Shown piece after piece: positions 22,729-42,243 of a stretch of DNA of 52,567 bases. Within the stretch, counting starts at the first letter, position 1. Every line of letters starts with the position of its first letter. The position numbers and the translations under genes were made by a program. The notes below the pieces were generated by a model that worked only from the letters and a program-made list of their open reading frames with translations, did not search any database and was not told the DNA's origin. The stretch is from an uncultured Bacilli bacterium (GTDB lineage Bacteria > Bacillota_I > Bacilli_A > RF39 > UBA660), in assembly GCA_944332435.1 (NCBI GenBank), contig CALVJW010000007.1, forward strand, positions 1 through 52,567, read 5' to 3'.

Positions 22729-23495
22729 TGAAAGTATCTGTTTTAGCAAGTGGCAGCAAAGGTAATTCTACCTATATAGAAACAGACCAAGTAAAAATTT
22801 TAGTAGATCTAGGGACCTCTTCTTTATATGTAGAGAAACAATTAAAATCAATTGGGGTTGATCCTAGTTCAATTGATGCCATCTTACTTACACATACCCA
22901 TGTTGATCATGTTAGTGGATTAAAGGTGTTTACAAAGAAATATCATACTAAAGTATATATGACGCCCCCGATGTATGAAGAATTAAGCAAAAATAATTTA
23001 GCTTTACCTTGTATTGAATATATATTAAATGCAGTTATATTAATAAAGGATTTACACATTTTGGTAGTGAAAACCTCTCACGATACCGATGATTCAAATG
23101 CTTATATCTTCGACAGTCTAGGACATACATTAGCCTATATTACAGATACAGGATATATTAACATCAAAAATCACAAGTATTTAAAAAATATGAATACTTA
23201 TATAATCGAAAGTAACCATGATGTTAACCTGCTTATGGATGGACATTATCCATTTCATATTAAACAGAGAATTTTAGGTGATAGGGGGCATTTATCTAAT
23301 AAACAATGTGCTTATTACCTATCAAAATTGATAGGTGATAAGACACATCAAGTTATTTTAATTCACTTAAGTCAAGATAATAACAACGAAGAATTAGCAA
23401 GGAAAGAAACAGAAGATATGCTAAAAGAACATGATTATCAGGTGCAGGTAAAGATATCAAGACAAAAAGAAAAAACGGAATTGGTGGAAGTATGA
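22728..23495 (+). CDS. walJ: Metallo-beta-lactamase-fold protein WalJ (YycJ)
   Basis: This is a soluble metallohydrolase of the beta-lactamase fold, linked in Gram-positives to the WalRK cell-wall regulon and to DNA repair or replication. The metal motif is THTHVDHVSG, and the later ESNHD, PFHIKQRILGDRGHLS and ILIHLSQDNN stretches match the YycJ family. Its 255 residues are normal. The start overlaps the preceding stop (TAATG), and the end overlaps rlmH in ATGA, giving a tightly coupled trio. Confidence 0.92.
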   Translation: MKVSVLASGSKGNSTYIETDQVKILVDLGTSSLYVEKQLKSIGVDPSSIDAILLTHTHVDHVSGLKVFTKKYHTKVYMTPPMYEELSKNNLALPCIEYILNAVILIKDLHILVVKTSHDTDDSNAYIFDSLGHTLAYITDTGYINIKNHKYLKNMNTYIIESNHDVNLLMDGHYPFHIKQRILGDRGHLSNKQCAYYLSKLIGDKTHQVILIHLSQDNNNEELARKETEDMLKEHDYQVQVKISRQKEKTELVEV

Positions 23496-23947
23496 TTAAG
23501 ATTATATGTGTAGGAAAAATAAAAGAAAAATTTTATCGTGATGCAATTTTAGAATATCAAAAAAGATTAAGCAAATATACAAAATTAGAATTAATCGAAG
23601 TACCAGATTCTAGTTTTTCCAACCCAGAGTTAAATCGTCAAAAAGAAAAAGAACAGATTTTAAAACATATCAAACCAAAAGAATATATTATTACGATGGA
23701 AATAGAAGGAAAAGAGTACAATAGTATAGGATTAGCTAGACATATTGATCAAGTGTTTCAATCTAACTCTACTATTACATTTATTATTGGTGGTAGTGAT
23801 GGATTAGATGACGAAATAAAGAGTATGAAGAGTGAATCGATTTCTTTTTCTCAATTAACATTTCCTCATCAACTATTCCGAATTCTTTTGTTAGAACAAA
23901 TTTACCGTACATATAAAATAAATCATAATGAAAGTTATCATAAATAA
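23492..23947 (+). CDS. rlmH: 23S rRNA pseudouridine1915-N3 methyltransferase RlmH
   Basis: RlmH is a SPOUT-class methyltransferase that acts on the 70S ribosome at pseudouridine 1915 of 23S rRNA. The 151 residues contain the SAM-binding FIIGGSDGLD knot and the conserved C-terminus LLLEQIYRTYKINHNESYHK. It overlaps walJ by 4 bases and is the last gene of the operon that starts at 18495. Confidence 0.95.
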   Translation: MIKIICVGKIKEKFYRDAILEYQKRLSKYTKLELIEVPDSSFSNPELNRQKEKEQILKHIKPKEYIITMEIEGKEYNSIGLARHIDQVFQSNSTITFIIGGSDGLDDEIKSMKSESISFSQLTFPHQLFRILLLEQIYRTYKINHNESYHK

Positions 23948-23948
23948 T

Positions 23949-23977
23949 GTATAAAATAAAAAAAAATCATTCACTAT
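23949..23977 (+). promoter_or_regulatory. Candidate forespore (sigma-F type) promoter of spoIIR
   Basis: GTATA (23949-23953) is followed after 16 bases by TTCACTAT (23970-23977). A very similar pair, GTATA then TTCACACT at 15 bases, precedes spoIIQ (35529-35556). Both genes are sigma-F dependent in B. subtilis, whose sigma-F -35 is GYATA. The -10 part is inferred from this comparison only. Confidence 0.45.
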
Positions 23978-23996
23978 GTAATAGGGGATGATTTTT
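23962..23996 (+). promoter_or_regulatory. Hairpin covering the spoIIR ribosome binding site
   Basis: AAAAATCATTC (23962-23972) pairs with GGATGATTTTT (23986-23996), 11 bp with one G-U pair and a 13-base loop. The right arm and loop contain the GGGG ribosome binding site (23984-23987), and the structure ends 2 bases before the ATG. It can serve as the rlmH terminator and also mask the spoIIR start in read-through RNA. Confidence 0.65.
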
Positions 23997-23998
23997 AT

Positions 23999-24520
23999 AT
24001 GAGAAAATTTTTAATTGTAGCAATAATTTGTTTTGGTTGTTATTTTATGATTGGTGCTAGAGCAAAAGAACTATTAATACCAGATGAAGCAATTCGTATG
24101 CGTGTTCTTGCAAATAGTAATTCTGAATATGACCAAAAAATAAAAAAAGAAGTTAGCAAAGATTTACAGAAAAGTATGTATCATTTACTAAAAAATACGA
24201 AGGGAATTGATGATGCTAGAACTGTCATTCAAAATCATATGAGTGATTTAAATGATACAGTAAATAAAACTTTAACGAGATTAGATTATGATTTGGGATA
24301 TCAAATCAACTATGGTATGAATTATTTTCCCAATAAAGAATTCCATGGCGTAACTTATAAAGAAGGATACTATGAATCAGTATTGGTAACATTGGGAAGT
24401 GGTAAAGGAAATAATTGGTGGTGTGTTTTATTTCCACCTTTATGTTTAATGGAAGCAGAAGAAAGTGATGATGTTGAATATAAATTTTTTGTACAAGAGA
24501 TGTTAGAAAAATATTTATAG
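23999..24520 (+). CDS. spoIIR: Stage II sporulation protein R
   Basis: SpoIIR is made in the forespore and exported to the space between the membranes, where it triggers SpoIIGA to activate sigma-E in the mother cell. The 173-residue protein has an N-terminal signal or membrane helix (about 3-20), the conserved IPDEAIRMRVLANSNS region (from about 27), and the WWCVLFPPLC signature (about 140-149). The start at 23999 is forced, since the upstream ATG at 23988 is soon closed. Its presence shows that this organism is a spore former or recently was. Confidence 0.93.
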   Translation: MRKFLIVAIICFGCYFMIGARAKELLIPDEAIRMRVLANSNSEYDQKIKKEVSKDLQKSMYHLLKNTKGIDDARTVIQNHMSDLNDTVNKTLTRLDYDLGYQINYGMNYFPNKEFHGVTYKEGYYESVLVTLGSGKGNNWWCVLFPPLCLMEAEESDDVEYKFFVQEMLEKYL

Positions 24521-24530
24521 TATAAATTAT

Positions 24531-24565
24531 CCTCTTATAAATAAAATTTTATAGGAGGCTTTTTT
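24531..24565 (+). terminator. spoIIR terminator whose right arm is the mntP ribosome binding site
   Basis: CCTCTTATAAA (24531-24541) pairs with TTTATAGGAGG (24548-24558), with one G-U pair and a 6-base loop, followed by CTTTTTT that runs directly into the mntP ATG (24566). The AGGAGG in the right arm is the only ribosome binding site for mntP, so the hairpin can both end spoIIR transcripts and mask mntP translation. Confidence 0.75.
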
Positions 24566-25105
24566 ATGCACGCTCTAATCATTATTATAATAGCAATAAG
24601 TTTAAGTATGGATGCATTTAGTTTGTCATTAGCATATGGAACGTTAAACATTAATAAAAAAGATATTCGATTACTATCGTTTGTTGTTGGTATGTATCAT
24701 TTTTTTATGCCATTATTAGGAATGTTTATTGGTAGCATCATATTAAGTTTACTACCGATTAGTCCTAATATCATTGTATTTATTGTTTTATTATTTATTG
24801 GAATTGAAATGATAGGTGAAAGTAGAAATAATCATACTCGAGAAGATATGCAAGTAATGAATATAAGAGATTTATTTTTATTTGCTTTTGCAGTGAGTCT
24901 TGATAGTTTTTCTGTTGGCATCGGTTTAAAATCTATCTCACAGCATTTTGTATTAAGTGCTATAACTTTTTCTTTTACAAGTTTCTTTTTTACGTATATA
25001 GGGTTAATATTAGGAAAAAAAATTAATAATAAGCTTGGAAGTATTTCGACATTTATTGGGGGAATGGTATTAATCTTGATTGGTGTAATTACATTGCTTA
25101 CTTAG
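24566..25105 (+). CDS. mntP: Manganese efflux pump MntP
   Basis: This small membrane transporter expels Mn2+. The 179 residues form six predicted helices in two repeats, with the acidic motifs SMDAFSLSLAYG (about 14-25) and SLDSFSVGIGL (about 112-122), typical of the MntP/YtaF (DUF204) family. spoIIR and mntP (ywlD) are also near neighbours in B. subtilis, which supports MntP over YtaF. Its AGGAGG is buried in the upstream hairpin. I see no yybP-ykoY manganese riboswitch. Confidence 0.85.
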   Translation: MHALIIIIIAISLSMDAFSLSLAYGTLNINKKDIRLLSFVVGMYHFFMPLLGMFIGSIILSLLPISPNIIVFIVLLFIGIEMIGESRNNHTREDMQVMNIRDLFLFAFAVSLDSFSVGIGLKSISQHFVLSAITFSFTSFFFTYIGLILGKKINNKLGSISTFIGGMVLILIGVITLLT

Positions 25106-41173: not shown

Positions 41174-41608
41174 ATGACAACACATTTTTGTGCATCAGCA
41201 ATTTTAATTGATCCAACATCTAAAAAGATTTTGTTGGTTCATCATAAAAAATTAAAAAAATGGGTACAACCAGGAGGACATATTGAAGCTGGCGAAAATC
41301 CGGAAGATGCTACATTGCGTGAAATATATGAGGAAACTGGATTGCATGCAGAATTACTAGGTGAAAGATTTCCAACAGAGCAAGATTTTATTAGACCACT
41401 TGGAATTCAAAGAACGGTAAAATCAAATGGTGATATCTATATTAGTATTATTTATCCGGCAATTCCATTAGAACGAAAAATAGTAGAATTAAATTGGGAA
41501 GAATCTAATAGTATTGGTTGGTTTACAAGAGAAGAGTTAAATCATATTGATGTTTTTGATGACATCTTAATAAGTTATGATTATGTAATAGACCATTATT
41601 TCCATTAA
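41174..41608 (+). CDS. Nudix hydrolase
   Basis: This enzyme hydrolyses a nucleoside diphosphate linked to another group, but the substrate cannot be told. The 144 residues contain a complete Nudix box from G35 to L57 (GHIEAGE, then REIYEETGL), in which R49, E50, E53 and E54 are the conserved metal-binding set. The QPGGH before it and the C-terminal helix are typical of small house-cleaning Nudix proteins. It ends in a terminator shared with the convergent nuclease gene. Confidence 0.88.
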   Translation: MTTHFCASAILIDPTSKKILLVHHKKLKKWVQPGGHIEAGENPEDATLREIYEETGLHAELLGERFPTEQDFIRPLGIQRTVKSNGDIYISIIYPAIPLERKIVELNWEESNSIGWFTREELNHIDVFDDILISYDYVIDHYFH

Positions 41609-41644
41609 AAAATATCCACCTATACAAGGTTGGATATTTTTTTT
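41607..41644. terminator. Bidirectional terminator between Nudix and nuclease genes
   Basis: AATATCCA (41611-41618) and TGGATATT (41631-41638) form the stem, flanked by A and T runs that work in either direction. Confidence 0.85.
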
Positions 41645-42243
41645 CTTACTTTTCGTTTCATTTTATTCATCGCTTTTTTTCGGTATTTTTTATTAAAAAT
41701 AAATAGAAGAACAACAATAATAATAGTAATAATAAGACATGCTATTTTTATATACTCTTTTGTTTGAATCAAAGAATCATTCCATTTTCCTTTTTTTTCT
41801 AATTTTGCTAAACTTTCTTCTTTTTGCAGTATTGCTGTATATTTATAATCATCATATAAATATGCTACCTCGGCATATCCTTTTTGAATTAATTCTTTTT
41901 GCAAAAGCGAGTCATCAACAAAAACCCAGGCAAGATGTCGATCATATTTATCTATTTTTTCTTTTCCATCATATTCTAATTCAATTTTATTTGCTTTTTT
42001 TAATTTGTTACAAGTATAGTTACTAGCTTCTTTTCCAAAAGGTTCTTCTCCTTTTTGTGGATGTTTTGTCTCAGGTGTATCAATCGCTAAAAAACGAACA
42101 GTAATTTCTTTTTGATTTAGTATTACTTTTGCCGTATCTCCATCAACACACTTTGAAAAGGTAACAGGTATTTTATCGGTAGTTGCATAAATCATTGGTG
42201 TATACAAGAAGAAAAAAAGAACGAAAATTAATATTTTTTTCAT
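41620..42243 (-). CDS. Membrane-anchored thermonuclease (staphylococcal nuclease fold)
   Basis: This is an SNase-family endonuclease, outside the cell or on the surface. With the start at 42243 (GGTGATGAT upstream) it has 207 residues; an upstream in-frame Met at 42324 is less likely. It has an N-terminal signal helix (about 3-20), the catalytic motifs VDGDTAKV, RFLAIDTPET and KYDRHLAWVF, and a C-terminal membrane helix with a Lys/Arg-rich tail (about 168-207). The added C-terminal anchor distinguishes it from secreted Nuc. A possible minus-strand -10, TATAAT (42264-42259), lies upstream. Confidence 0.87.
   Translation of the reverse strand: MKKILIFVLFFFLYTPMIYATTDKIPVTFSKCVDGDTAKVILNQKEITVRFLAIDTPETKHPQKGEEPFGKEASNYTCNKLKKANKIELEYDGKEKIDKYDRHLAWVFVDDSLLQKELIQKGYAEVAYLYDDYKYTAILQKEESLAKLEKKGKWNDSLIQTKEYIKIACLIITIIIVVLLFIFNKKYRKKAMNKMKRKVRKKISNLV

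Follow-up and report, generated by a model that had tools for sequence, protein, structure and literature searches.

A hairpin nested in the spoIIR promoter of a family of Bacilli that probably shields the gene from read-through transcription

In the uncultured Bacilli bacterium studied here, the sporulation gene spoIIR is located directly behind a housekeeping gene, which raises the question of how RNA reading through from that gene would be kept from yielding SpoIIR. The window, by which we mean the whole stretch of 52,567 nucleotides that was analysed (GenBank assembly GCA_944332435.1, contig CALVJW010000007.1; GTDB lineage RF39; UBA660), is contig C7 of an incomplete bacterial genome of 0.94 Mb that is 66% complete. 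All features of the window described below are on the forward strand unless stated otherwise. The housekeeping gene rlmH (23492..23947) was recognized with NCBIfam RlmH NF000985 at 176.8 bits, with a cut-off of 172, and is followed by a gap of 51 nt, the spoIIR coding sequence (23999..24520) and a gene for a ytaF/mntP-like membrane protein (24566..25105). The match of SpoIIR to TIGR02837 covers profile positions 31-165 of 168, with a score of 130.6 bits that is below the curated cut-off of 151.9, and the matches of the membrane protein to TIGR02840 (61.6 bits) and NF008546 (53.1 bits) are both below their cut-offs. SpoIIGA, the partner of SpoIIR, was sought in 16 family genomes and found in 15, among them one from the same genus, and the sole miss was the 66% complete assembly that contains the window.

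Only 1 nt separates the stop codon of rlmH from a forespore-type (sigma-F/G-like) -35 box, GTATAA (23949..23954), which is followed by a -10 box, CACTATG, at 23972..23978. The promoter may be read by sigma-F. The segment 23949-24001 folds into one hairpin with a free energy of -11.7 kcal/mol (shuffle mean -3.32, z -4.66, 0 of 200 shuffles as stable), in which positions 23962-23972 pair with 23986-23996 and an inner stem joins 23974-23977 to 23981-23984. The hairpin in the spoIIR leader is thus confirmed as a real observation. Its left arm (23962..23972) is located in the promoter spacer, between the candidate -35 and -10 boxes, as the first-pass annotation had described, while the -10 box is located in the loop. 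The right arm (23986..23996) is overlapped by the Shine-Dalgarno sequence AGGGGA (23983..23988) and carries on the 3' side of the stem a terminator-like T run (23992..23996) directly before the ATG. The left arm is upstream of the -10 box, which recurs in relatives, and the expected start region of the gene's own transcript (23982..23987) is placed by the -10 position only. For RNA begun at 23982 or 23985, folding gave only -1.8 kcal/mol and the spoIIR hairpin was absent. The predicted mean unpaired probability of AGGGGA is 0.19 in read-through RNA and increases to 0.61 if the RNA begins at the assumed +1 position.

The explanation that we favor, with a probability of about 0.8, is that a read-through shield is nested in the spoIIR promoter and terminates and/or masks read-through RNA only. 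A polymerase coming from rlmH would copy the promoter spacer, and the read-through RNA would therefore carry both arms. The hairpin, which holds the Shine-Dalgarno sequence in its 3' arm and is followed by a U run, would form in this RNA and would end transcription and/or conceal the ribosome binding site. RNA made with the forespore sigma factor would begin past the -10 box, and would consequently have no left arm, be open and be translated, such that the start point of the RNA would decide whether spoIIR is made. We infer the transcription start site, the read-through, the termination efficiency and the effect on sigma-E in this scheme. The benefit would presumably be the avoidance of untimely SpoIIR. 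One should not take for granted that leaked SpoIIR is harmful, since an uncompartmentalized SpoIIR without its N-terminus complemented a spoIIR deletion, according to a 2026 paper (PMC13174948).

We compared the window to the spoIIR leaders of its relatives. SpoIIR was detected in 256 of the 291 genomes of the window's family, from which we drew 110 leaders with the SpoIIR proteins most similar to that of the window, 30 of them as loci from the search and 80 as fetched stretches. To place the promoter boxes and start codons we used our own scoring, which was set after viewing the sequences; the start codons of six leaders (L022, L061, L084, L081, L106 and L074) were reassigned from the -10 position, and leaders L033 and L028 are limited by short contigs. 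Nearly all of the 110 leaders contain a G(T/A)ATAA-like box at the place of the -35 box, a spacer of 17-19 nt, a CANTAT-like box, a Shine-Dalgarno sequence and a start codon, which in this working assignment is located 19-38 nt past the first base of the -10 box. The two boxes resemble the sigma-F/G promoter consensus.

We anchored each leader on its promoter boxes and scored the best stem that the spacer can form with the stretch before the ATG. The leaders' own arms reached a stem score of at least 17 in 72 of 110 cases, as compared to 16.6% of cross-genome pairs and 4.6% of shuffled right parts, and a score of at least 20 in 59 cases, as compared to 7.6% and 0.9%, respectively. The stems of the 72 hairpin leaders have 7-16 pairs (median 11) and contain 44 different 6-nt cores. 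Covariation was analyzed in 20 leaders with one loop length and a stem score of at least 19. In this set, 93.2% of the cells pair, a percentage that is inflated by the selection on stem score, a bias from which the cross-pairing test on the 110 leaders is free. Both partners have changed in nine of the 11 pairs. The covariation score was 0.631 versus 0.212 for shuffles, of which 0 of 500 reached this value, and at most 0.234 when slid. The first-pass annotation had called for a check of compensatory base changes in relatives, and such changes, as expected of a conserved RNA structure, are present in the spoIIR leader hairpin throughout the family. The proposal thereby passed its own refutation test, a lack of conserved pairing. 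This pattern indicates that selection keeps the pairing of the hairpin, not its sequence.

It is very improbable that the complementarity is a product of chance or composition, through a pyrimidine-rich spacer that happens to match a purine-rich Shine-Dalgarno sequence. Such matches do occur, as seen from the 16.6% of cross-genome pairs that reach score 17 and from the 45% of cross-genome pairings that reach score 16 in the distant set of loci described below, but inside the window's family this explanation is contradicted by the excess of own pairings over the shuffles and by the compensatory changes at nine of 11 pairs. Inverted repeats may serve as operator sites, and the element could in principle be a protein site in the DNA or act in the gene's own RNA as a thermometer or riboswitch. 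We found no supporting evidence for these options in this analysis and give them very little credence: the 44 different stem cores in 72 leaders speak against a sequence-specific site, and RNA started after the -10 box has no left arm.

We also compared the presence of the hairpin to the exposure of the promoter to transcription from upstream. An upstream stop was called tight if a co-directional frame ended at most 5 nt from the -35 box, or inside it. A tight upstream stop was found in 65 of the 72 hairpin leaders, as compared to 10 of the 38 leaders without hairpin (p = 1.2e-11), while upstream of the -35 box two and 14 of these leaders, respectively, have a separate hairpin that resembles a terminator (p = 3.7e-6). 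Both contrasts hold with one vote for each of the 66 genera (p = 1.6e-7 for the tight stop and 1.3e-4 for the terminator). The expected switch was observed in three of the four genera with both states, with the hairpin-less member having room and a terminator of its own. Counter-cases among the 38 leaders without hairpin are the 10 with a tight stop and 15 that, by our criteria, are neither tight nor have a detected terminator. These results support the view that the presence of the spoIIR hairpin follows the exposure to read-through, and they suggest that hairpins and upstream terminators trade off in the spoIIR leaders of the family. Together with the conserved pairing and the promoter boxes on both sides of the left arm, the link to exposure supports the first-pass proposal that read-through RNA, and only this RNA, would be silenced.

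No Rho protein scored above the curated cut-off in 16 family genomes, with weak partial matches in three of them, and read-through would therefore have to be stopped by hairpins. Matches to the N-terminus of Rho of 42-48 residues were seen in genomes G017 and G098, with a stop inside the frame. In B. subtilis, the loss of Rho accompanies raised expression of the SigK and SigG regulons, as described in PMC5540618.

Given these patterns, could the hairpin be a plain intrinsic terminator of the rlmH operon, which overlaps the next promoter because of genome compactness and hides the ribosome binding site incidentally? A run of at least four T in the last 12 nt before the start codon was found in 67 of the 72 hairpin leaders versus four of the 38 others, and the hairpin is mostly present where a terminator has no other room, both of which fit this explanation. 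We nevertheless consider it unlikely, since the hairpin also accompanies spoIIR behind upstream genes that were not recognized as rlmH (45 of the 72 hairpin leaders), the layout is hardly carried by ordinary packed genes (four of 119; see below), and several copies from outside the family have no T run yet pair with the Shine-Dalgarno sequence. In the window, the hairpin has a T run, but its stem is AU-rich with G-C in only two of 11 pairs (class median 3.5), and a simple terminator scan of the window did not flag the spoIIR leader hairpin. Because of the low number of G-C pairs and the missing flag, the copy in the window would be weak as a terminator.

The first-pass annotation had offered termination and hiding of the ribosome binding site as alternatives. 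The T run beside the ATG points to termination besides masking in the window's family, and both are likely at work in its spoIIR leaders. The median distance from the Shine-Dalgarno sequence to the start codon is 9 in the hairpin class and 5 in the others, which fits a U tract that is retained at the expense of the spacing. Part of the T run may serve pairing, since the facing bases in the hairpin class are mostly A; T is also found in 43 of the 79 stem positions 7-11 whose facing base is not A. The hiding of the site, as the other half of the proposal, is predicted to be partial. In the hairpin class, the predicted unpaired probability of the Shine-Dalgarno sequence has a median of 0.33 in read-through RNA and increases to 0.72 if the RNA begins at the assumed start, as compared to 0.42 and 0.95 in the class without hairpin. 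By these values, masking through folding alone is incomplete.

These data also bear on the idea that the hairpin masks the ribosome binding site without any termination, as proposed for B. subtilis sigG. The stem in the window, which is weak as a terminator, the distant spoIIR copies that mostly are without a T run, and the sigG leaders of the family, which have long stems over AAAGGAGAT, are all in line with a mask of this kind. For the spoIIR leaders of the family we find it doubtful, because the T run is tied to the hairpin class and extends to stem positions that do not face an A, and because the predicted masking is only partial. Termination combined with masking is thus the action that we prefer inside the family.

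Outside the family, the picture is more varied. A search at the order level gave matches from the window's family only, and a search of the phylum gave one additional weak match, which was left out. In a class-wide draw, SpoIIR was found in 19 of 60 genomes, of which 14 are from outside the family. Inspection of these 14 loci by eye identified a clear layout in L188-L192 and L203-L205 and a short one in L201 and L202, while it was not evident in L197, L198, L200 and L206. In one outside family, five genomes have arms of the type CACCTAC...GTAGGTG around CATAATG, mostly without a T run. From a collection of named genomes, 80 loci were fetched and 47 examined, of which 41 passed the promoter filter; B. 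subtilis spoIIR was not among these loci. A score of at least 20 was obtained for the own arms in 18 of the 41 loci versus 16.6% of the cross pairs, and a score of at least 24 in 11 loci versus 4.7%, a contrast that is weaker than inside the family. The strong loci include those of a Haloplasmataceae MAG, Lihuaxuella thermophila DSM 46701 and Halobacillus karajensis DSM 14948, and six of the 11 loci with a score of at least 24 belong to Halobacillus, which limits the independence of the species. The T run is absent from most copies outside the family, where masking alone is the likelier action.

We searched 16 family genomes with a covariance model built from the spoIIR leader. The model identified the spoIIR leader in 14 genomes and missed it in G049 and G138, which belong to the class without hairpin. 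The best match in the window was the spoIIR leader itself, with 51.6 bits. A second match in the window, at 41600-41654 on the minus strand, was rejected, since in appearance it is a common hairpin of the terminator type that follows a reading frame. The next match, in the same genome and in several relatives, is located between genes named by eye as era-like and recO-like, and precedes a gene for a YqzL-like protein of 28-35 residues. With the Pfam model for YqzL, which has a cut-off of 27, the copy from this genome scored 27.9 bits, while two others scored 23.8 and 25.5, below the cut-off. The yqzL hairpin would also separate recO from era transcription. A tiny YqzL-like gene with what looks like a shielded promoter of its own was observed at L304 (G000:C6:4465-4519, minus strand), L305, L308, L311 and L312.

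Within the window, a second hairpin with the same layout is located before the ytaF-like gene (24531..24558), with a stem of 11 pairs that is followed by CTTTTTT and ATG; the segment 24515-24580 folds with -19.0 kcal/mol. A comparable hairpin was found in 24 of 40 leaders of ytaF-like genes in the family. By eye, the -10 box at the ytaF leader hairpin looks different, TAAAAT. The layout was also identified in 11 of the 17 sigG leaders of the family, with 10 of the 11 leaders that have a close co-directional upstream frame, as compared to one of the six leaders without such a frame. Both arms are conserved at sigG, which makes the cross-pairing control uninformative for this gene. In G017 and G129, among others, sigG is located behind spoIIGA and another sigma factor gene, as in B. 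subtilis, where the spoIIGA-sigE operon is upstream of sigG according to PMC5942855. The sigG gene of the window's own genome (L120) has a terminator-like hairpin with a T run immediately before the -35 box and no hairpin inside the promoter.

With the same detector, the layout was found in 0 of 12 gpr leaders, 0 of 12 rlmH leaders, 0 of eight leaders of other sigma factor genes and four of 119 ordinary neighboring genes, of which L313 had been fetched by the covariance model itself and the other three are located in an overlapping upstream frame. By these counts, the layout distinguishes certain sporulation genes and is not shared by packed genes generally. A generic trait of packed genes was rejected on the basis of the four of 119 ordinary neighbors, and a generic trait of forespore genes on the basis of gpr, which is without the layout and has a different -10 box. 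The gpr leaders (L141-L163) have -10 boxes like GGTAAAAATA and the -35 box GCAATA, as opposed to the CANTAT type of spoIIR and sigG. This difference may reflect a split between two forespore sigma factors in the window's family.

The first-pass annotation had drawn a parallel to phage T4, in which early transcripts of late genes, from an upstream start, fold over the ribosome binding site. That case concerns the timing of phage genes and is not known to involve a terminator, whereas spoIIR belongs to cell development, and we have replaced it with another system as the closest one. By analogy, the closest parallel to the spoIIR hairpin is the large hairpin at B. subtilis sigG (spoIIIG), for which PMC5942855 credits Sun 1991 and Masuda 1988. 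According to the same paper, this hairpin of more than 20 pairs, which RNA from PsigG cannot form, is proposed to block the translation of RNA that reads through from PspoIIG, and the abstract states that misexpressed sigG leads to inappropriate activity during vegetative growth. Both cases involve a sporulation gene with a forespore promoter behind another gene, a hairpin that is proposed to act on read-through RNA with the own-promoter RNA excluded (by prediction for spoIIR), and a ribosome binding site within the hairpin, which at spoIIR is the AGGGGA that overlaps the 3' arm. They differ in the genes, which here are spoIIR, ytaF and yqzL, in the T run, which suggests termination, and in the conservation through compensatory changes, which was measured at spoIIR. 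A small hairpin at B. subtilis sigG likewise covers the ribosome binding site of a gene for a forespore regulator, but as described in PMC5942855 its formation takes place in the gene's own RNA and reduces all translation, whereas the spoIIR hairpin is predicted not to form there.

In the leader of the IS200 transposase, one stem-loop terminates impinging transcripts and another hides the ribosome binding site, as summarized in PMC3196728. This gene is thus also guarded from outside transcription by termination and masking, but with two separate stem-loops and in a mobile element, as compared to a single promoter-nested hairpin at a developmental gene. From what these sources describe for sigG and IS200, the principle of read-through shielding is already known. 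A literature search that was largely limited to openly accessible texts found no description of a hairpin at spoIIR. As far as the literature was searched, the following appear to be new: a hairpin at spoIIR that is nested in the promoter and has the -10 box in its loop, the terminator component, the compensatory evolution as measured here, the trade-off between hairpins and upstream terminators, and the additional occurrence of the layout at ytaF and yqzL.

A broader hypothesis, for and against which we see equal weight, is that Bacilli make general use of origin-sensing. Forespore-only genes would write the complement of the ribosome binding site into the promoter spacer such that the -10 box forms the loop, each RNA thus proving its promoter. 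In a gut lineage without detectable Rho, the hairpin would also have come to serve as terminator for the housekeeping gene before it, and the arrangement would have spread to spoIIR, sigG, ytaF and yqzL. If the reading for spoIIR is true, its shield depends on the start site and is maintained by compensatory change across many genera, and it would provide a compact design of an insulated promoter that is easily checked with reporters. It would also provide a sequence signature with which to find further genes in which leaky expression has been selected against, and it would explain how sporulation genes can be seated directly behind housekeeping genes in small genomes.
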